36,130 nucleotides of DNA from Nitrospiraceae bacterium (GTDB taxonomy: Bacteria; Nitrospirota; Nitrospiria; Nitrospirales; Nitrospiraceae). Location: positions 1-36,130 of the forward strand of contig SYGV01000043.1 in the NCBI GenBank assembly GCA_005799365.1, read 5' to 3'. This document shows, in pieces, positions 6,463 to 24,519 of this stretch (the first letter of the stretch is position 1; the number at the start of each line of letters is the position of its first letter). The position numbers were made by a program, and so were the translations under genes. The notes below the pieces were generated by a model. The model was not told the origin of the DNA, made no database searches, and was given only the letters and a program-made list of their open reading frames with translations.

Positions 6463-6832
6463 GGCCTCACCTTTCCATCAAGCCGCCAGGTCGCGCACGA
6501 TACCACACCGATCAAGAGATCGGAAGGCGTGGGGTTCGAGGCGCGAGGGGCGGGCGAGATTCTCCGCTGTCCGATCATAGGCTGGCCGCGTGCCGACCGC
6601 GCGTGATGTGCCGCAGGCCTGCGCCTGTGGCGCGATTGACTCTTCTCCATAACTTGGTTAGAGTAACCCCGTTTTCTTGTTCAGGCGGGCCTTATCGTTC
6701 CGTGTTGTGAACTCGGTTTCCCGCCGCGATTACACCCCCGCGCTGTCTCAACTCAAGGCCCTGAGGCCTGTCCCGGCGAGCTTCGTCCGGGAGTCGAGCC
6801 CTGGGACAAGATTAAACGGGGACGGAGGATGC
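6463..6832. other. 370-bp intergenic region between divergent genes
   Basis: No credible gene is seen. The frame of the methyltransferase is open leftward to 6677, but that extension has no family resemblance and lacks a ribosome site. The region holds the promoter candidate at 6636-6664. A GC-rich part at 6530-6600 shows no clear repeat. Confidence 0.5.
6636..6664 (+). promoter_or_regulatory. Candidate sigma70 promoter upstream of the methyltransferase
   Basis: TTGACT (6636-6641), a 17-bp spacer and TAGAGT (6659-6664). This gives a 5' leader of about 160 nt before the ATG at 6833. The match is fair and not tested. Confidence 0.4.
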
Positions 6833-7522
6833 ATGGATCTGGAAAAAGTCGAACGGGTTTATTCGAACTACGCAGGCGTCTACGATCAGATTTTCGGCAG
6901 GATTTTCCACGAGTCGCGCGAATCCACGGTTCGCCGGCTGCCCGTCGCATGGGGGGAGCGAATCCTCGAAGTCGGGGTCGGCACCGGTCTCTCGCTGCCG
7001 CTCTACCCCCGGCACTGCCGCTTGGTGGGCATCGACCTCTCCGCCGGCATGCTGGAGAAGGCGCGGGAGCGGGTGCGGATGTACGGGCTGGAGCACGTCG
7101 AGCTGTCCCGCATGGACGCGGGACAGATGGAATTTCCGGACGACAGCTTCGACACCGTCATGGCCGCCTACGTGGTGACGGCGGTTCCCGACTATCGCAA
7201 GGTGGTGACCGAGATGATCCGGGTCTGCCGGCCTGGAGGGCGGATCATCATGCTGAACCACTTCAGCAACGGGAACAAGCTGATCGCCGCGGTGGAAAAA
7301 GTGATCTCCCCGCTCTGCAAGCACATCGGGTTCCGGACCGACCTCTCGCTGAATCACGTGCTGGATGGCACGTCGTTGCTGGTGGCGCGGAAGGAGAAAG
7401 TCAATCCGTTGCGGTTCTGGCATCTTGTGGAGTGCGTGAATCGGAAGCACGGGAACGGATCCGGGAACGGCCATGGGAACGGCAACGGATCGGGAAACGG
7501 GGACGGACAGGCCTCTCACTGA
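6833..7522 (+). CDS. Class I SAM-dependent methyltransferase (phospholipid N-methyltransferase-like)
   Basis: A 229-residue enzyme. The SAM-binding motif I is ERILEVGVGTGLSLPLY (about residues 42-58), followed by LVGIDLSAGMLEKARERV, DAGQMEFPDDSFDTVMAAYV and the post-motif RVCRPGGRIIMLNH. The overall pattern, with YSNYAGVYDQIFGRIFHESR at the N-terminus, resembles bacterial PmtA-type phosphatidylethanolamine N-methyltransferases; the substrate is not proven. GGACGGAGG at 6820-6828 supports the ATG at 6833. The last 25 residues are an unusual Gly/Asn-rich tail with His and Ser. The gene converges with the following one (gap 9 bp). Confidence 0.85.
   Translation: MDLEKVERVYSNYAGVYDQIFGRIFHESRESTVRRLPVAWGERILEVGVGTGLSLPLYPRHCRLVGIDLSAGMLEKARERVRMYGLEHVELSRMDAGQMEFPDDSFDTVMAAYVVTAVPDYRKVVTEMIRVCRPGGRIIMLNHFSNGNKLIAAVEKVISPLCKHIGFRTDLSLNHVLDGTSLLVARKEKVNPLRFWHLVECVNRKHGNGSGNGHGNGNGSGNGDGQASH
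7451..7506 (+). repeat. In-gene repeat coding a Gly-Asn tail
   Basis: Repeated GGGAACGG-like units encode GNGSGNGHGNGNGSGNGDG at the C-terminus of the methyltransferase. Units such as GGGAACGG, GGCAACGG and GGAAACGG recur about every 6-12 nt. Such a tract can change length by slippage. Confidence 0.7.
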
Positions 7523-7531
7523 CCCGTCTCG

Positions 7532-8434
7532 TCACTCCGTCGGTTGCATCCGACGAATGACTTCTCCGGCCTGATCCGACGCGCCCCGTTGGGCCGGTTG
7601 CCCGTCCAGCCCGTGTCCCAGCCATTCTTCCCCGTCCATCACCTGATCGCCGGTGAGGCACATGCCCGGAAAGCTGCGGGCGATGAGGTCGGCCAGGGCG
7701 ATGAACAGCCGGCCGGTCGCACCGTCCTGGGGAGAGGCGGCGCGGAGTGCGATCACACAGGCGCAGCCGTCGAGAGGCCCGTAGGCCTGGACGAGCACGC
7801 CGCCGCTCCGGGGCTGGCCCTGGCTTCCGCGGGGCCGGTACGGCGCCGGCACCAGGCGGCCTTCCCACCGCAACGTCTGGTGTGCCCCGGGCGAGCGCTT
7901 GCCTGCCTGCCAGGTGCAAGGCACCCCGGCCCGGTCCAGGTGGTCCAGCAGCCATTTCACGGTCGGAAGACTGCCGGTGGGGACCTGAAAGGTCCATTCG
8001 GTCATCCCGGTGCGGCTGGGTCGGCCGGCTCCCGGTACGGAGACCTCTTCCAGCATCGCCTCATCGCAAATGACGTAGAGTTCTCCGTGCGGATCGAACC
8101 AGAACCGGAGTCGGCCCCCGAACGTTTCGGCATGGATGGTTCCGATCTCGGAACAATCCGCCCCCTCCTGCTCGAAAATCGAGAAGTCCGTGGCCCCGGC
8201 CATCGTCAGCTTGGCCACGCGCGTCAGGGGATAGAGTCCGGCGTCGCCACGGACCGCCAGGTCATAGCGGATGATGGCGGTGATGGTGGTGCCCGCCGTG
8301 ATGTGCCGTCCCGTGGACTCGTCATAGAGTCGCTGCTTGCGGACGTGCAAATCGGTCACCTGGCCGCCCTGAAAGGCGTGGGTATGGTCCAGCAGCCAGG
8401 CCAGCTCCTCGCCGGTCTTGATCCGGTACTTCAT
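7532..8434 (-). CDS. Conserved-looking hypothetical protein, 300 aa
   Basis: A soluble 300-residue protein without signal peptide or membrane segment. The N-terminal half is beta-rich with several His and charged positions (LLDHTHAFQGGQVTDLHVRK, SIFEQEGADCSEIGTIHAET, LRFWFDPHGELYVICDEA). The C-terminal half includes FQVPTGSLPTVKWLLDHLDR and LFIALADLIARSFPGMCLTG. I do not recognise a family. The frame is long, clean, and ends 9 bp from the convergent methyltransferase gene. It is divergent from the pirin gene, so its promoter lies in the 8435-8510 region. Confidence 0.65.
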   Translation of the reverse strand: MKYRIKTGEELAWLLDHTHAFQGGQVTDLHVRKQRLYDESTGRHITAGTTITAIIRYDLAVRGDAGLYPLTRVAKLTMAGATDFSIFEQEGADCSEIGTIHAETFGGRLRFWFDPHGELYVICDEAMLEEVSVPGAGRPSRTGMTEWTFQVPTGSLPTVKWLLDHLDRAGVPCTWQAGKRSPGAHQTLRWEGRLVPAPYRPRGSQGQPRSGGVLVQAYGPLDGCACVIALRAASPQDGATGRLFIALADLIARSFPGMCLTGDQVMDGEEWLGHGLDGQPAQRGASDQAGEVIRRMQPTE

Positions 8435-8514
8435 GGCGGTATTCTAGCGGAATCGCCGCTCCAAGAGCCACAAAGCAATGAAAACGCGCAGATTCGCCGG
8501 GACGGGGCTGGCCC

Positions 8515-8543
8515 TTGACATTAGTTCTATCTAGGACCATTAT
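8515..8543 (+). promoter_or_regulatory. Promoter of the pirin/VOC/QOR gene run
   Basis: A perfect -35 TTGACA (8515-8520) is followed at 17 bp by CATTAT (8538-8543); TTATAA (8540-8545) and TATAAG (8541-8546) are alternatives at 19-20 bp. It lies about 50 nt upstream of the likely pirin start at 8596. Confidence 0.55.
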
Positions 8544-8551
8544 AAGGTCCT
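8533..8551. promoter_or_regulatory. Palindromic operator candidate over the -10 region
   Basis: AGGACC (8533-8538), a 7-bp AT spacer ATTATAA, then GGTCCT (8546-8551): a perfect inverted repeat with a centre-to-centre spacing of 13 bp. Overlap with the -10 is typical of a repressor site. No regulator gene is adjacent. The bound protein is unknown; MarR-, Rrf2- or TetR-type regulators are possible by analogy with pirin and quinone-stress loci. Confidence 0.55.
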
Positions 8552-8595
8552 GTGATCGCGTGGGGCGATGGCGTGAAAAGGCAGGCAGGTGGGTC

Positions 8596-9501
8596 ATGAC
8601 TCAACCAACCGGGCGGGCGGCGGCGAAAGAGCCGACGATCGGCGGTCGGCCCAGGATCTATTCGCCTGGTTCGACGCACGTCGTCGGAGACGGCTTCCAC
8701 GTCCGCAATCTGTTTCCGAGCCACGACCTCGACCGGGACGTGAGTCCCTTCCTGATGCTGGACTATGCGGGTCCGACGGACTATCCCCCGACCGATCATC
8801 CGCGGGGCGTGGGAGAGCATCCCCACCGCGGATTCGAGACGGTGACCATCGTGTATCAAGGGAAGGTGGCGCATCGTGATTCGGCGGGGAATGCCGGTGT
8901 CATCGGTCCCGGCGACGTACAGTGGATGACGGCTGCCTCCGGGGTCGTCCACGAGGAGCTGCATGAGCGGGAGTGGGCGAAACGAGGGGGGACCTTGCAA
9001 GCGATCCAGCTCTGGGTCAACTTGCCCGCCGCGTTCAAGATGACGGCCCCGCGGTACCAGACGCTGGTGCAGGAGCGGATTCCCGTCATTCCGCTGGACG
9101 GCGGCGCCGGCTCGCTGCGCGTGATCGCGGGTGAGTTCAACGGAGTGAGGGGTCCGGCGGCGACGTTCACCCCGGTGCAGCTCCATGATCTGCGCGTGAA
9201 GGCTCGGCATGGCACGACGCTCGGGTTTGCGGCCGGATGGAATGTGGCCCTCTTCATGCTCGAGGGGCGGGCGACGGTGAACGGATCGGAGCCGGTGACC
9301 GAGGCGCAGGTGGCGGTGCTCGGCGACTCAGGCGCGCCGGTCCTCGTGGAGGCGCAACAGGATGCGACGATGCTGGTGATGGCGGGGGAGCCGATCCATG
9401 AGCCGATCGCTCGGTATGGACCGTTTGTGATGAACAGGCAGCAGGAGATCGTCCAGGCCGTGCAGGACTATCAGGCGGGCAAGATGGGGCATCTGAGCTG
9501 A
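8596..9501 (+). CDS. Pirin family protein
   Basis: A 301-residue bicupin. The N-terminal cupin carries DHPRGVGEHPHRGFETVTIVY, with the conserved metal-binding His residues, followed by GVIGPGDVQWMTAASGVVHEE with the later ligands. LQAIQLWVNLP is the typical pirin mid-segment. The C-terminal cupin has VALFMLEGRATVNG. Pirins bind Fe at this site; some oxidise quercetin, others are redox sensors. The ATG at 8596 is chosen because the family region starts soon after it and because the longer frame would begin inside the promoter. It is the first gene of a same-strand run with the two VOC genes, 13 bp before the next start. Confidence 0.9.
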   Translation: MTQPTGRAAAKEPTIGGRPRIYSPGSTHVVGDGFHVRNLFPSHDLDRDVSPFLMLDYAGPTDYPPTDHPRGVGEHPHRGFETVTIVYQGKVAHRDSAGNAGVIGPGDVQWMTAASGVVHEELHEREWAKRGGTLQAIQLWVNLPAAFKMTAPRYQTLVQERIPVIPLDGGAGSLRVIAGEFNGVRGPAATFTPVQLHDLRVKARHGTTLGFAAGWNVALFMLEGRATVNGSEPVTEAQVAVLGDSGAPVLVEAQQDATMLVMAGEPIHEPIARYGPFVMNRQQEIVQAVQDYQAGKMGHLS

Positions 9502-9514
9502 AGGAGAAATCATC

Positions 9515-9925
9515 ATGGCGGTTCAAGTCTATGGCTGCAACCACATCGTGATCGAGGTCACGGATGCCCAAAAGGCCGTGAAGTTTTATTCCGATGTCTT
9601 CGGCCTGAAGATGCTCAAAGGCGGAGAAGGCGCGGCTTGGTGCAAGCTGGGCGAACATCAGTTCATGGCGATCTTCGAGGTGGAGCAATTACAACCAGAC
9701 CGAGTGAAGCACTTCGGCCTGATGGTCCGCGACGAGAAGCAGATCAAGGAAGTGCGAAGGAAGCTCGTCAAGAAATACAAACTCAAAATGCAGCCGCATT
9801 TCCGCTGCGACTTCCGCGATCCCTGGGGCAATCGGATTCAGGTGGGCGACCTCAGCGACGAGTCGTTGGTGTGGCTCCTCCCCTATCGGGAGGTCCAGAA
9901 GGCCGGGATCACGTTCGCACCCTAA
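9515..9925 (+). CDS. VOC family (glyoxalase/dioxygenase superfamily) protein
   Basis: A 136-residue protein with the VOC pattern: GCNHIVIEVTDAQKAVKFYS at the N-terminus, FYSDVFGLKML, KHFGLMVRD in the second module and FRDPWGNRIQVGDL near the end. Conserved metal-ligand positions are partly kept: His in CNHIVIEV and KHFGLMV. The usual Glu ligand in the last strand (normally NxxE) appears as RIQVGD, so catalytic metal binding is uncertain. The superfamily includes glyoxalase I, extradiol dioxygenases and resistance proteins. AAGGAGAAATC precedes the ATG. It is 13 bp behind pirin and probably cotranscribed. Confidence 0.82.
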   Translation: MAVQVYGCNHIVIEVTDAQKAVKFYSDVFGLKMLKGGEGAAWCKLGEHQFMAIFEVEQLQPDRVKHFGLMVRDEKQIKEVRRKLVKKYKLKMQPHFRCDFRDPWGNRIQVGDLSDESLVWLLPYREVQKAGITFAP

Positions 9926-9996
9926 CGCTCCACATGCCGGTCCGTGGGCGCGGGAAGGGCGGACATGGTTTCACGGTGCCACGCAAGGAGGCCGTC

Positions 9997-10443
9997 ATGA
10001 AGGCCCATTATCTTGGTCATGTGGTGTTCTACGTCAGGGACCTCGAACGATCGCTGGCCTTCTATCGTGATTTGCTGGGATTCCAAGAAATCGGCCGCAT
10101 CTTCAATGAACAGGCCGCGGCCCTGACCTCCGGGCGCACGCACCGCGAACTGTTGCTGATCCAGGTGGGCGAGGCGCCTGGTCCTCCGCAAGGCCGGCGT
10201 CGGGGGCTCTACCATATCGGCATTAAGGTCGGCGACAGTTTGGGCGAACTGCGCGAGGCCAAGCGCGAGTTAGAGCAAGCCGGCATCGGGATCGATGGCA
10301 TGAGCGACCATACGGTGAGCCAGAGCCTGTACTTGCGCGATCCGGACGGCAACGAGGTGGAGCTTTATGTGGATGCCGACGCGTCCTTGTGGAAAGAGAA
10401 TCCCCGCTCGGTCTTGTCGCCGACCAAGCCGCTGAATCTTTAA
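9997..10443 (+). CDS. VOC family ring-cleavage-dioxygenase-like protein
   Basis: A 148-residue VOC protein. It starts KAHYLGHVVFYVRDLERSLA (first metal His in GHVVFYV), then FYRDLLGFQEIG, GLYHIGIKVGDSLGELREA (second His) and SQSLYLRDPDGNEVELYVD (third ligand Glu in NEVELY). All three ligand positions of extradiol dioxygenases are present, and it resembles the catechol-2,3-dioxygenase-like proteins of Gram-positive quinone-stress loci. The ATG at 9997 is supported by AAGGAGG (9985-9991). It lies 71 bp behind the first VOC gene on the same strand. The substrate is unknown. Confidence 0.88.
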   Translation: MKAHYLGHVVFYVRDLERSLAFYRDLLGFQEIGRIFNEQAAALTSGRTHRELLLIQVGEAPGPPQGRRRGLYHIGIKVGDSLGELREAKRELEQAGIGIDGMSDHTVSQSLYLRDPDGNEVELYVDADASLWKENPRSVLSPTKPLNL

Positions 10444-10526
10444 GAGACGAAGGTCTGTTCGTCGGTTTGCCCTCGGCCCTCGCCTATGGGATGATGAGCC
10501 GGTCCTGGAGCGTTGGGGAATGTTCC

Positions 10527-10661
10527 ATGACGGAAGCCAGTGAATTCCTGCTCCACCATGAAATTCCACGCGATCGGGACGTGCTCTATTGTCCCTGCCC
10601 CAACGAAGTGGCCAGCGCAAGCGGTGGCGCCGGCGCGGATGATGCAGGAGGAAGCCCATGA
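10527..10661 (+). pseudogene. Rhodanese-domain remnant
   Basis: A 44-residue frame beginning MTEASEFLLHHEIPRDRDV then LYCPCPNEVASA. The part HHEIPRDRDV-LYCxCPNE matches, in my memory of the family, the active-site end of the rhodanese domain carried by DedA-type membrane proteins, where the catalytic Cys lies in such an YCxCPNE loop. The rest of the domain (ARxALxLRRxG and GG-x-x-AW) is missing, and the frame ends in unrelated GGAGADDAGG. Its TGA overlaps the ATG of the following NmrA-type gene (ATGA at 10658-10661), so the remnant may still couple translation. Sequence before 10527 shows no further match. Confidence 0.5.
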
Positions 10662-11515
10662 GTAAAACGCAGATCATTTTGGTCACGGGCGCCACGGGAC
10701 AACAAGGAGGGGCGGTGGCCAGGAGCTTGTTGCGTCGGGGCCAGAAGGTCCGCGCCCTCACCCGCAATCCGGCCAAAGCGGCCCGGCTGGTGCAGGAAGG
10801 CGTCGAGGTGGCGCGGGGCGATCTTACCGATTCGGCTTCGCTCCGGGCGGCGCTGCAGGGGGTGCAGGGCGTATTCGCCATGTCCACGCCCTTCGAAGCC
10901 GGGATGGACGAAGAGGTCGCACAGGGCACGATGCTGGCCGACCTGGCCAAACAGGCCGGGGTGCAACATTATGTGTATACCTCGGTCGGAGGGGCCGAGC
11001 GCAACACCGGCATCCCCCATTTCGACACCAAGTGGCAGGTCGAGCAGCACATCCGGAAGATCGGCCTCCCCGCCACGATTCTCCGACCTGTCTGGTTCAT
11101 GGAAAACTTCGGCACCTTTTGCCGCCCCTTTATCCTCCAAGGGACGCTGGCGCTCCCGCTGCGCCCCGACCGGAAGTTGCAGATGATCGCGCTCCAGGAT
11201 ATCGGGGAGTTCGGGGCCTCGGCCTTTGTCCGCCACGACGATTTTCTCGGCCAGGCGATCGAATTGGCGGGAGACGAGCTGACCATGGCGGAGGTGGTGG
11301 CGCACCTGTCACGCACCATGGGTCATCTCATCCGGTTCCAACAAGTCCCGGACGACCAGGCTCCGGCCGCCTTCGGAGACGACTTGGCCGTCATGTTCCG
11401 TTGGTTTAACGAACAAGGCTACCAGGGAGACATCGAAGGGCTTGGGCGGCGGTACGGCATCCCGCTGACGAAATTCACAGAAGTGATTGCTTCGGCGGAG
11501 TGGGCCAGGGAATAG
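10658..11515 (+). CDS. NmrA-type NAD(P)-binding reductase
   Basis: A 285-residue atypical short-chain dehydrogenase. The dinucleotide-binding loop is LVTGATGQQGGAVARSLL (about residues 9-26), followed by VRALTRNPAKAARL, which suits NADP, and VYTSVGGAERNTGIPHFDTK with the family His/Lys pattern, ILRPVWFMENF and the substrate-lid region. It is of the NmrA/QOR2 type: some members are quinone reductases (E. coli QorB), others are redox sensors. A good ribosome site, AGGAGGAAGCCC, ends 1 nt before the ATG and its stop-start overlap links it to the rhodanese remnant. It is followed 40 bp later by the zeta-crystallin type reductase. Confidence 0.88.
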   Translation: MSKTQIILVTGATGQQGGAVARSLLRRGQKVRALTRNPAKAARLVQEGVEVARGDLTDSASLRAALQGVQGVFAMSTPFEAGMDEEVAQGTMLADLAKQAGVQHYVYTSVGGAERNTGIPHFDTKWQVEQHIRKIGLPATILRPVWFMENFGTFCRPFILQGTLALPLRPDRKLQMIALQDIGEFGASAFVRHDDFLGQAIELAGDELTMAEVVAHLSRTMGHLIRFQQVPDDQAPAAFGDDLAVMFRWFNEQGYQGDIEGLGRRYGIPLTKFTEVIASAEWARE

Positions 11516-11555
11516 TCATCGGGACTATCCTAGACTGAAGCCCGAGGAGGAAGGC

Positions 11556-12515
11556 ATGCAGGCGATCAGGGTCCATCAATTCGGTGAACCGGAAGTCATG
11601 AAGCTGGAGACCCTGCCCGATCCGACACCGGGCCCCGGCGAGGTCCTCATACGGGTCAAGGCCGCCGGCGTGAATCCCGTGGACACCTACATCCGGGCCG
11701 GCTCCTACGGGAAACTGCCGATGCCCTATACGCCGGGCCTGGATGCGGCGGGGACGGTGGAGGCGGCGGGCGTGGGGGTGAAGGTCTTCAAGGCGGGGGA
11801 TCGTGTCTATATGTCGGGCACCCTCACCGGCGCCTATGCGGAAAAAGCCCTCTGCAAGGTCGAGCAGGTACACCGGCTTCCGGACAAGGTGACCTTCGCG
11901 CAAGGGGCTGGGATGAACGTCCCCTATGCGACGGCCTACCGCTCGTTGTTCCAGAAAGCGCAGGCCAAAGGCGGTGAGGTCGTTCTCGTCCACGGCGCGA
12001 GCGGCGGGGTCGGAGTGGCCGCCGTGCAGATCGCGCGGGCCGCGGGCCTGATCGTGATCGGCACCGCCGGGTCCGACAGGGGGCTGGCGCTCGTCAAGGA
12101 ACAGGGCGCCCACCATGTGTTGGACCATCGAAAGCCGGACTACCTGGCCCAGGTGATTGGACTCTCAGACGGGCGCGGGGTGGACGTGGTTCTGGAGATG
12201 TTGGCCAACGTCAATCTGGGGAAGGACCTGACCATCATGGCGCCGGGCGGCCGTGTGGTCGTGATCGGGAGCCGGGGCTCGGTCGAAGTCAGCCCGCGGG
12301 AACTCATGGTGCGGGACGTCACCGTACTGGGCATGGTTCTCTTCAATGCGACGCCTTCGGAAACCGCGAGCATCCATGCGGCTCTGGTGGCCGGACTGGA
12401 GAACGGCACCCTGCGCCCAGTCACGGGCCGGGAACTACCGCTGGCCGAAGCTCCGCAGGCCCACAAGGCGGTGATGGAGGCGGGAGCCTATGGGAAGATC
12501 GTCTTGATCCCGTAA
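11556..12515 (+). CDS. qor: NADPH:quinone reductase, zeta-crystallin type
   Basis: A 319-residue medium-chain dehydrogenase/reductase without the structural-zinc Cys loop. The N-terminal GroES-like part has GEVLIRVKAAGVNPVDTYIR and MPYTPGLDAAGTVEAAG. The cofactor site is VVLVHGASGGVGVAAVQIAR (about 144-163). The GxRGSVEVSPRELM segment and the C-terminal GAYGKIVLIP are typical. The family transfers electrons from NADPH to quinones or reduces enones. The ATG at 11556 follows a strong GAGGAGGAAGG site; the longer frame back to 11487 lacks resemblance. It ends the electrophile-stress-type run and converges with the carbonic anhydrase gene (39-bp gap). Confidence 0.9.
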   Translation: MQAIRVHQFGEPEVMKLETLPDPTPGPGEVLIRVKAAGVNPVDTYIRAGSYGKLPMPYTPGLDAAGTVEAAGVGVKVFKAGDRVYMSGTLTGAYAEKALCKVEQVHRLPDKVTFAQGAGMNVPYATAYRSLFQKAQAKGGEVVLVHGASGGVGVAAVQIARAAGLIVIGTAGSDRGLALVKEQGAHHVLDHRKPDYLAQVIGLSDGRGVDVVLEMLANVNLGKDLTIMAPGGRVVVIGSRGSVEVSPRELMVRDVTVLGMVLFNATPSETASIHAALVAGLENGTLRPVTGRELPLAEAPQAHKAVMEAGAYGKIVLIP

Positions 12516-12554
12516 CAGGATGCTGAAAGTGGCTCCGGTCGCGGCGGTCGAGCG

Positions 12555-13262
12555 TCACAGGTCCAGCAGTTCGACCTTGCCGGTCCGAAGCCGGTAGATG
12601 CCCCCCGCGACGGTGATGGGCCGCCCCGCGTCGGTGACGAAGGGGGCGGAGCGGACCTTTCCCACCATCAATCTGACGTTTTCCCGCACCGCGTTTTCCA
12701 AAAGGTCGCCCGGCAGTTGCTTGGCCAGCCGAATGGCCGGTTCAATCGGCCTGATCAGGGCCTCGAGGTAGTCTTCGGTTGCCGAGGCATGTTTGCCCGT
12801 ATGGAACGCTGCCTTGACCGCGCCGCAATCCTCGTGCCCGAGTACCACGACCAGATTCACGCCCAGTTCGAGCACCCCATACTCGAGGCTGCCCAGCACG
12901 CCGGTCGTCACGACGTTGCCGGCGTTCCGCACCACGAAGAGATCATTGAGTCCTTCGTCGAACACGATTTCCGGCGAGACCCGTGTGTCGGAACAACAGA
13001 GCACCGCCGCATAGGGATGCGAGCCGTGCTCCGCCGCATCGCGACGGTCTTCCAGGAAGTCTTCGTGGTGCAACTGCAAGGTGGAGAATCGCGCATTCCC
13101 CGCCCGCAGTTTGTCCAAGGCCTCCTTGCTTTCGGGGGCATGGGGATGATGGGCCTCATCTGCTGTCGCCAGGCCGTCGGCCGAAGCCAGCACCGCCCCG
13201 GCGACCGTCAACCCGGTCACTTGCAGGAAACCTCGACGCGTCAACTTTCCACGGCTTGTCAT
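12555..13262 (-). CDS. Beta-carbonic anhydrase with Tat signal
   Basis: A 235-residue enzyme. Residues 1-33 are a twin-arginine signal (TRRGFLQVTGLTVAGAVLA), so the folded enzyme should be exported to the periplasm. The zinc and dyad residues are in LCCSDTRVSPE (Cys90, Asp92, Arg94) and VLGHEDCGAV (His143, Cys146), with VRNAGNVV and GSLEYGVLELGV between. It interconverts CO2 and bicarbonate. A periplasmic location suggests a role in CO2 supply or pH balance at the envelope; a physiological link to the stress genes next to it is not shown. It is on the opposite strand to them. Confidence 0.92.
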   Translation of the reverse strand: MTSRGKLTRRGFLQVTGLTVAGAVLASADGLATADEAHHPHAPESKEALDKLRAGNARFSTLQLHHEDFLEDRRDAAEHGSHPYAAVLCCSDTRVSPEIVFDEGLNDLFVVRNAGNVVTTGVLGSLEYGVLELGVNLVVVLGHEDCGAVKAAFHTGKHASATEDYLEALIRPIEPAIRLAKQLPGDLLENAVRENVRLMVGKVRSAPFVTDAGRPITVAGGIYRLRTGKVELLDL

Positions 13263-21939: not shown

Positions 21940-24519
21940 TTATCCGGCCGGGTCTTTTGATCGTCCCAATGTCTTGACCTCTCCGTTCGATGCATCCACC
22001 GCCATCCAGTCTCCGTCCCGCAGGCGCTTGGCAGCCAGCCCTACGTTTGCGACTGCGGGCAGGCCGTATTCACGGGCGATGATCGCCCCGTGCGACAAGG
22101 TCCCGCCCATTTCCACGGCCAGCCCGGCTGCCAGACCCAGCACCGGCGCCATCCCCGGATCGATCACCGGGACCACCAGAATATCCCCCCGTTGAACTTT
22201 CTTCAGGTCTTCCGGCGAGCGAATAATGCGCGCCGGTCCTTCCGCGTATCCGGAACTGAGAGGAATGCCCGTGAGCGTCTCGCCATGGGTAATGGCTTCC
22301 CGGGGCGCTGCTTCCGCCCCTTCGATCACCGTGTCCGGCGCGTCGAGCAAGACATGCCTGGCCCGTTCCGCCTGGCGGGTAGCCACCACGTCTTTCCAGT
22401 CCCTTCGCCGATCATGCACAGCGGCGCGAATCTCGTCCTCCGTCAGGAAGAAGATATCTTCCTTCGACTGGAGCAGGCCCAACGCGACGAACGATGCCCC
22501 CAAGTGCCGCTCGCCTTGGCGCACGGCGTCCGTGAAGTGCATCAAGTGGTGACGGTTGGCTTCCCGCAGCGCAAGGAAGCGACAGAGGCGGGTGTAGGTG
22601 TAGCGGAACAAGAGCCGTTTATGCCAACGCCGGCCGAAAGCCCTGCGAATACGCTCCAACGCGTTGGTACGGACTATGTCTTGCTCTCGGCGAATGGCAT
22701 CGGCAGATCTGCCGGGCTCGGGGGAGGGGGCTTGCAAGTGGCTTCGGATGACGCCGAGTAGGTAGTCCGGTATTTCCGCGAAGCGGGCGGCCATGGGGTC
22801 CGATTCGCCGACCGCCCTGTGTCCGTACTCCGCCACGTAGGACTCGAAGTCGCGCAAGAAGTTGGTCCCGGCCAGCTTGCTCCGAAAAGAAAAAGGCTCC
22901 CAGGGCTCGGCCAGTAAAAACTCCCGCGCCATCGGTTCGTGCCTTGCTTGGTCGGCCAGTTCGGCCAGCCGGAGGATTTGTGCGGCGCTGATGATCGTGC
23001 CGATCCCTTGGAGCGCGTCGTTCAACAACGGCCGCCAGTTCTGACCGAGCCGACGCGGCAACAGCCATCCGAGCGCATACAATCCTTGGGAGACTCCGGC
23101 CACAATCGCAAACGTCAGGTCCGCCTCTCGCAGCCGCTCGTTCAGCCGATCCAGCTTGGCCAGCAAGTCAGCCGGCTGGTGCCCGGCCAGCCCCTCATCC
23201 GGCCGGTCCTCCGCCATCTGTTTCATTTCCCTAAACCAGGCCGGCGCCCGTTTGGCCGCACGCCGAATTTTCTTTTCCATCAACAGCCCGGCGCGCAGAA
23301 TCTTCCACCAAGGCAGGCGCGGAGGTCCTTCGATCGGCGGCCGTTCCTCGCCGCCCATTTGTTCGACGACCAGCCTGGGGTCGCCGCCTAATTGCACGGT
23401 GAACGATTGGAAGAGGGACACGTTGATGTAGGGCCGGCCGCGCATGATCCGAACCGTCGGCCAGCCGTCCGGGACTCGGCAACCCAGCTCGCGGTAATGG
23501 CCGACGATGTTGGTTTCCATGAAGGCTTCCAGAAACGAGAGGCCGAGGGGGCTGGGCACGTCGGGCATCGTCTCTTTAAAGTTGGCGCGGGACCAGACAA
23601 TGGGAGGGGGGGGCAACGCCGGTTTTGGCGTCGGGATCGCCCTGACTTGGAGCAACCAGATCCCCTGACCGGCCAGGGCCCATTCGATGTCTGCGGGAAA
23701 GCCCATCTGCTTTTCGACGTCTTTGATCAGACCGGCCAGGGCCAGGATCTCTCGTTCGTCCAGGACCGGCGCCCCCCGTTCCGGTTCGGCAAGCCGCCGT
23801 TCAACGACCGTTCCGGAGCCGGACCCGTCGCCCAGGTCCACGACATACTGATCCGGCGTCACGGTCCCGGAAGCAAGCGGTTCGGCCAGGCCGAAGACCG
23901 CATTGATCCACACCTGTTGCGGTTCGCCTGTGATCGGGTGGCGGGAGTAGGCGACGCCGGCGGCACGCGGCGCCAGCATCGGCTGAATGATGACCGCCAT
24001 GGCCGGCGCGACGCTTCTTCCGCTGACCCGGAGGCGGTAGACCAAGGCTGCTTCGGTCCAGAGCGAGGCCCAGCAGTCGAGGATGGCTTGGGCGAATCCC
24101 TCGCGGGGCACTCCCAGCCTGGTATGGTAGAGGCCGGCAAATGTGGCCTCGGCTCCGTCTTCATCGGAAGCGGAGGAGCGGACGGCGAACGCCGTCTCGC
24201 GCCAAATCCCCAGGCGCTGCAATTCTTCATCGATGAGGGCAAGGAGGGACTGAGACAAAGCCAGGGAGGTGACGAGACGGCGATCCTCCTCCAACAGCGC
24301 CGGCCGTCGTTCATCCGATGCTTGGCACAAGCAGGCCCACCGGGCAGCGGCGTCGAAGCCGCCAGCCCGCAGGCTCTCGCGATAGGCCTGCATCGTAATG
24401 CAGAGACCGGGAGGCACGTGGAATCCGCTTTGAATCAGGCATCCAAGACCGGCCCCTTTCCCCCCGACGAGGGTCGGGTCGTCACAGGATTCTAGCGGGA
24501 GAACAAGGTGCGCAGCCAT
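21940..24519 (-). CDS. PEP-utilising phosphotransferase, rifampin-phosphotransferase-like architecture
   Basis: An 859-residue three-domain protein. Residues 1 to about 310 are an ATP-grasp domain (LVGGKGAGLGCLIQSGFHVP, FAVRSSASDEDGAEATFAGL, GVAYSRHPITGEP, IEWAL). The middle, about 320-760, lacks the PEP synthase TIM barrel but has an own helical domain with WSRANFKETMPDVPSPLGLS, HYRELGCRVPDGWP and YEYGHRAVGE-like VAEYGHRAVGESDP. The end carries the swivelling phospho-His domain: GGTLSHGAIIAREYGLPAVA with His810. Length and layout match rifampin phosphotransferase (about 870 residues) rather than PEP synthase. The substrate is unproven. It starts 2 bp behind the glycerate kinase stop, so it is the third gene of an operon. 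Confidence 0.85.
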   Translation of the reverse strand: MAAHLVLPLESCDDPTLVGGKGAGLGCLIQSGFHVPPGLCITMQAYRESLRAGGFDAAARWACLCQASDERRPALLEEDRRLVTSLALSQSLLALIDEELQRLGIWRETAFAVRSSASDEDGAEATFAGLYHTRLGVPREGFAQAILDCWASLWTEAALVYRLRVSGRSVAPAMAVIIQPMLAPRAAGVAYSRHPITGEPQQVWINAVFGLAEPLASGTVTPDQYVVDLGDGSGSGTVVERRLAEPERGAPVLDEREILALAGLIKDVEKQMGFPADIEWALAGQGIWLLQVRAIPTPKPALPPPPIVWSRANFKETMPDVPSPLGLSFLEAFMETNIVGHYRELGCRVPDGWPTVRIMRGRPYINVSLFQSFTVQLGGDPRLVVEQMGGEERPPIEGPPRLPWWKILRAGLLMEKKIRRAAKRAPAWFREMKQMAEDRPDEGLAGHQPADLLAKLDRLNERLREADLTFAIVAGVSQGLYALGWLLPRRLGQNWRPLLNDALQGIGTIISAAQILRLAELADQARHEPMAREFLLAEPWEPFSFRSKLAGTNFLRDFESYVAEYGHRAVGESDPMAARFAEIPDYLLGVIRSHLQAPSPEPGRSADAIRREQDIVRTNALERIRRAFGRRWHKRLLFRYTYTRLCRFLALREANRHHLMHFTDAVRQGERHLGASFVALGLLQSKEDIFFLTEDEIRAAVHDRRRDWKDVVATRQAERARHVLLDAPDTVIEGAEAAPREAITHGETLTGIPLSSGYAEGPARIIRSPEDLKKVQRGDILVVPVIDPGMAPVLGLAAGLAVEMGGTLSHGAIIAREYGLPAVANVGLAAKRLRDGDWMAVDASNGEVKTLGRSKDPAG

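Follow-up and report, generated by a model that had tools for sequence, protein, structure and literature searches.

A predicted MarR-operator circuit at a pirin-VOC-reductase gene cluster of Nitrospira-family bacteria, with a proposed role in quinone and electrophile handling

The window analyzed here is a stretch of 36,130 nucleotides (contig SYGV01000043.1) from a metagenome-assembled genome of the Nitrospira family (GCA_005799365.1), which is fragmented into 145 contigs and 77% complete. Within it, five plus-strand genes encoding a pirin, two VOC-fold proteins (VOC2 and VOC3), an NmrA-family reductase, and a quinone oxidoreductase (QOR) follow a promoter whose spacer is filled by an inverted repeat, and the same repeat precedes a marR gene elsewhere in the genome. 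That MarR, operator, and gene cluster belong to one circuit we hold with high confidence. The fuller proposal, that the cluster is a repressor-controlled detoxification operon for quinones or other electrophiles, we regard as probable on balance.

The operator lies inside the promoter. The promoter (8515-8543, plus strand) consists of a -35 box, TTGACA (8515-8520), a 17-bp spacer, and a -10 box, CATTAT (8538-8543), and both boxes are kept across the family. The 18-bp operator, TAGTTCTATCTAGGACCA (8522-8539, no strand), is a predicted MarR site that is conserved at operon leaders, and its motif also occurs upstream of marR. Its consensus, TAGTTCTAnnTAGAACTA, is a 9-9 inverted repeat that fills the space between the boxes, and the promoters of sister species read TTGAC(a/t), closely followed by TAGTTCTAnnTAGAACTA and TTAT. 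The operator matrix drew on sites chosen beforehand for TTGAC, while the other conservation scans used no such preselection. Of 60 family genomes, 35 contained a match to the pattern TNGTNCTANNTAGNACTA, in nearly every case at a single place, and the control gave few matches. The sites fetched from the family were followed by a gene for DoxX, NmrA, a pirin of the YhaK or the YhhW type, or an HtrA-like protein of the module described below. Moreover, none of 41 genomes from other phyla that carry pirin had the motif, and a scan of some 1.07 Mb of pirin loci returned a Nitrospirae record as its sole match.

An earlier note on this DNA had proposed control by a palindrome, and a conserved operator is indeed present, but the palindrome AGGACC-N7-GGTCCT (8533-8551) is not the conserved one. 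It is not kept in sister species and is therefore taken as coincidence; a sweep of 60 genomes with TAGGAC-N9-GTCCTA gave fewer matches than the control. The note had also begun the cluster at 8515. A pirin gene is there, but 8515 belongs to the -35 box, and we have moved the start of the gene to the ATG at 8596. A similar palindrome, TAGTTCTATATAGAACTA, occurs in two other genomes (G070 and G078; loci L179 and L180) ahead of a small gene of pyridoxamine-oxidase-like type. In L180 this gene is followed by one for another MarR protein, and the palindrome probably belongs to a separate system.

No regulator gene was found beside the operon within the family, where the neighbors encode secreted or housekeeping proteins, SnoaL-like proteins, and others. 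In outgroup families of Nitrospirota (f9, genomes G214, G320-G322, and G324; f3, G308; f20, G076 and G124), the operator lies 60 to 100 bp upstream of marR, which is followed by doxX and, in G308, then by a YhhW-type pirin gene. The MarR ortholog of the Nitrospira family is single copy and unlinked, and in most carriers its identity to that of G308 is 56-64%. In the window genome (G000) the gene lies on contig C127 at about 22055-22513 (matched part, 22079-22495), with an operator copy upstream at C127:22027-22044. Its product matches Pfam MarR (2.8e-14) and MarR_2 (2e-11) and no HxlR model, and it matches NCBIfam models of other MarR equivalogs weakly.

Distribution ties this protein to the operator. 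In all four genomes of the window's genus, zero-mismatch sites of a widened operator pattern, picked after the marR sites had been seen, fell only at the pirin and marR promoters. Among 29 marR genes from the family, 17 are closely preceded by a site with at most two mismatches, compared with a rate of 0.14% in shuffles. Among 79 family genomes, 38 have both operator and MarR, none has the operator only, 12 have MarR only, and 29 have neither (P = 2e-12); within genus g6 the corresponding counts are 11, 0, 2, and 26 (P = 5e-8), and both P values ignore shared ancestry. We conclude that the regulator of the operon is very probably the MarR protein of C127. Its Cys58 lies at the winged-helix domain, is shared by all 39 of 39 MarR sequences, and is a candidate sensor residue.

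Some features of the marR locus are recorded here in their own right. A nitroreductase-family gene follows marR in some relatives, and the copy directly after marR in the window genome (L208, 1963-2367) looks truncated, at 134 amino acids versus 199 in G039. In other relatives that place is taken by a cytochrome c-like or MBL-fold gene. The marR promoter (L208, 1441-1480) lies very near the start codon, and the transcript may be nearly leaderless. Finally, g6 genomes that have lost marR (among them G025 and G041; loci L240 and L241) retain parts of the operon (NmrA, FrnE, and VOC2) and have no operator, which suggests rewiring after loss of the repressor.

All five open reading frames of the cluster were assigned to Pfam families, and because their products have relatives kept at about 62-96% identity in other Nitrospira-family genomes, they are genuine genes rather than chance frames, in the close succession that the earlier note had described. 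The spacings are 13 bp (pirin-VOC2), 71 bp (VOC2-VOC3), 214 bp (VOC3-nmrA), and 40 bp (nmrA-qor). The pirin (8596-9501, plus strand; Pfam Pirin, 7e-33; Pirin_C, 4e-28) is of the YhaK type, with 7te5, "Pirin family protein YhaK," as its top solved-structure match (E value, 2e-97; residues 21-300), and it is about 62-79% identical to relatives outside the window's genus. VOC3 (9997-10443, plus strand; Pfam Glyoxalase, 7e-17) has dioxygenase- and Fos-like matches in NCBIfam and PDB, and H8, E51, H73, and E122 are invariant in its alignment (A2, 15 sequences). H8, H73, and E122 stand at the presumed metal-ligand positions of VOC enzymes, and the dioxygenase-like protein with three ligands that had been suggested at 9997 is thus borne out. 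At 148 amino acids, VOC3 departs from the four-module architecture (about 300 amino acids) of CatE/BphC-type enzymes, and it scores 39.6 bits on the catechol_2_3 model, under the cutoff of 320.

The two reductases fared differently. The NmrA-family NAD(P)H-binding protein P0004 (10658-11515, plus strand; Pfam NmrA, 1e-66) had been called QOR2 type; the family assignment holds, but after its PDB match to 5f5l, "Monooxygenase" (7.6e-73), HSCARG/NMRAL1 (about 4e-31) is nearer in sequence than QOR2/YtfG (2.5e-22). P0005, the product of qor (11556-12515, plus strand; Pfam ADH_N and ADH_zinc_N), is the zeta-crystallin-type quinone reductase that was predicted: it matches quinone oxidoreductase 1yb5 over its full length (E value, 1.6e-100; residues 1-318), and it scores 230.8 bits on the PIG3 family model of NCBIfam, under the cutoff of 296.8. 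The five genes suit quinone or electrophile handling because QOR matches 1yb5, NmrA matches HSCARG-like and other NAD(P)H-binding proteins, and VOC3 carries a 2-His-1-Glu set.

How the circuit might work can be proposed in a few steps. MarR made from C127 would bind the 18-bp repeat in the promoter spacer and block transcription of pirin-VOC2-VOC3-(DedA remnant)-nmrA-qor, five genes that are presumably cotranscribed. We infer repression as the sign of control. MarR would also bind the repeat before its own gene, such that an inducer would derepress marR as well. A quinone-like or other electrophilic compound may inactivate MarR, either by binding as a ligand or by modifying Cys58, and the operon would then be expressed. 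QOR and NmrA could use NAD(P)H to reduce quinones or similar electrophiles, and pirin and the VOC proteins could open or otherwise remove the (hydro)quinone or catechol ring or its thiol adduct. That quinones are both the inducer and the substrates is suggested by analogy with known systems.

A serious rival keeps the same MarR circuit and changes the signal. Nitrite or oxidant stress (HOCl or chloramine, or reactive nitrogen derived from nitrite) may be what the repressor naturally senses, with protection of thiols and Fe-S centers as the primary function and quinones secondary. Genes for FrnE/DsbA, DoxX, CDGSH, Rieske-FMN reductase, and rhodanese-type proteins occur in related operons, Cys58 is invariant, and yhaK has been reported to be nitrite induced (PMC5031710). 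QOR, NmrA, and the 2-His-1-Glu VOC3 instead indicate organic electrophiles, and mhqRED of Staphylococcus aureus is unresponsive to reactive oxygen species or HOCl (PMC6798810). We consider an oxidant or nitrogen oxide signal possible and clearly less probable than a quinone-like one.

The cluster of the window is a minority, rearranged form of a module found family-wide. In most Nitrospira-family loci examined, the order is DoxX-NmrA-pirin-FrnE/DsbA-VOC2-VOC3, with SnoaL, a Rieske-FMN reductase, or a small protein optionally between VOC2 and VOC3 and CDGSH optionally after VOC3; the NmrA of that module belongs to another subfamily and shares about 30% identity with P0004. The earlier note had asked whether the gene order is conserved in other Nitrospirota, and it is kept in two genera, so that the refutation named there, an order not shared by relatives, did not come about. 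In the window's genus (L112-L114) it is pirin-VOC2-VOC3-DedA/rhodanese-NmrA-QOR, and neither DoxX nor FrnE is present there. The same five genes recur in order in a second genus (G020, contigs C45 and C38), with a YhhW-type pirin and with the order pieced together from two contigs that overlap at their ends, in VOC3-NmrA. In G013, the operator followed by pirin and P0004-type NmrA is placed away from VOC2.

Several observations weigh against the proposed operon, besides the shared ancestry already mentioned. Some marR genes, mostly of genera g19 and g10, have no clear upstream site, and about 12 family genomes have MarR and no exact operator match, some of them with near matches. VOC2 is without the usual Glu ligand. 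L113 and L114 have a gene inserted between VOC2 and VOC3. Finally, P0004-type NmrA and QOR are missing from most of the family, being found in 15 of 60 genomes at E values of ≤1e-30, many of these distant, and in 8 of 60 at ≤1e-60.

The last two observations favor a smaller regulated unit, comprising only pirin and VOC2 (perhaps VOC3), with NmrA and QOR as chance downstream neighbors outside the response. So does the 214-bp gap before nmrA, part of which is filled by what is left of a DedA(VTT)-rhodanese fusion gene (10527-10618, plus strand). The gene is whole in sister species, and blastn against the sister-species locus L112 showed internal deletions in the window copy, which could be a true deletion or an assembly fault. 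We nevertheless think the smaller unit unlikely: in G013 the operator stands directly before pirin-NmrA, the entire five-gene order is found again in G020, and a consensus scan of 8400-12700 detected a single promoter-like site and no terminator-like site.

In VOC2 (9515-9925, plus strand; Pfam Glyoxalase, 2e-10), H10, H66, and Gln109 are invariant across 18 sequences (A1), and Gln109 occupies the usual position of the Glu ligand in the 2-His-1-Glu set of extradiol VOC dioxygenases; here too the ligand positions are presumed ones. A VOC2 match is present in 53 of 60 family genomes, orthologs are 79-93% identical across many genera, and its conservation across the family is far above that of its operon neighbors. 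Perhaps the circuit is specific to Nitrospirota, with VOC2 as the central enzyme together with pirin, with a substrate peculiar to nitrite-oxidizer physiology (e.g., a nitrite-modified quinone), and with chemistry new to all systems; we hold this reading to be doubtful. AlphaFold models of VOC2 and VOC3, built from shallow alignments, had mean pLDDT values of 43 and 45 and were discarded as unusable. Detoxification of aldehydes or methylglyoxal by glyoxalase-like VOC proteins is very improbable, as the weak likeness of VOC2 and VOC3 to lactoylglutathione lyase models (22-27 bits against a curated cutoff of 120) is exceeded by their dioxygenase- and Fos-type matches, and mhqRED of S. aureus does not respond to aldehydes (PMC6798810).

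Two known systems resemble the quinone operon in different parts. The comparison of architecture with published description supports the statement that the Nitrospira circuit works like MhqR, while membership in the MhqR system is unsupported. MhqP and CatD are DoxX-like, and DoxX is encoded by the leader gene of most Nitrospira operons; yqjF likewise encodes a DoxX-family protein. The nitroreductase-family gene beside marR in some Nitrospira relatives is a further likeness to MhqR. The MhqR regulon (Bacillus subtilis mhqNOP, mhqED, azoR2, and mhqA; S. aureus mhqRED) combines a MarR-family regulator, a 9-9 bp inverted-repeat operator, and one or more VOC dioxygenases with reductases, and in S. 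aureus it is a tiny, autoregulated regulon of one operon (PMC6798810). The Nitrospira circuit shares the MarR regulator, the 9-9 bp repeat at regulator and target promoters, the small and presumably autoregulated regulon, and the pairing of VOC proteins with reductases. It differs in operator letters (TATCTCGAA-aTCGAaATA for MhqR, TAGTTCTAn type in Nitrospira) and in operator position (at the start site for MhqR, between the -35 and -10 boxes here). Moreover, its reductases are of other families, pirin and FrnE are added, marR is unlinked within the family, and MarR has an invariant Cys58, whereas S. aureus MhqR is reported not to be thiol based.

The earlier note had known such a gene set only from Gram-positive bacteria. 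The resemblance to MhqR stands, but the YhaJ regulon of Escherichia coli, a Gram-negative bacterium, shares parts of the set: the pirins yhaK and yhhW, the dioxygenase ygiD, and yqjF are induced by hydroquinone- or catechol-like compounds, and in a yhaK mutant the inducing compound stays undegraded (PMC5031710). Pirins of YhaK and YhhW type, a dioxygenase (a putative one in Nitrospira), and a DoxX-family protein are common to both. YhaJ, however, is a LysR-type activator of dispersed genes, in contrast to a predicted MarR-type repressor of one operon, and the E. coli dioxygenase, YgiD, is not a VOC protein. The YodB, CatR, and QsrR regulons also control VOC dioxygenases (CatE) and quinone or nitro reductases (PMC6798810). 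Their regulators are of the DUF24/HxlR type, whereas the Nitrospira regulator matches Pfam MarR.

Among the papers searched, none described how Nitrospira-type nitrite oxidizers respond to electrophiles or quinones, and none dealt with pirin in Nitrospira physiology or with a MarR-DoxX-pirin operon; the stress circuit is apparently undescribed so far. A candidate regulator can be named for it, its operator is precise, and its targets are very few, namely one operon and the regulator's own gene. Nitrospira-type nitrite oxidizers are hard to manipulate genetically, and the circuit is open to tests in vitro that need no genetics. A single regulon would unite the part lists of two separate systems, MhqR of the Firmicutes and YhaJ of E. 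coli, and VOC2 and pirin are placed in a testable pathway.

The surroundings of the cluster contain a few other features. A gene for a beta-type carbonic anhydrase (12555-13262, minus strand) is convergent with qor, and its product has a Tat-like signal (RRGFLQ) at the start. A tmRNA gene lies at positions 20-219, with the tag peptide AEDETILG. Upstream of the cluster, a gene at 6677-7522 encodes a UbiE/COQ5-like methyltransferase with an odd Gly-Asn-rich C-terminal tail, and its position upstream of the cluster is kept in related genera.

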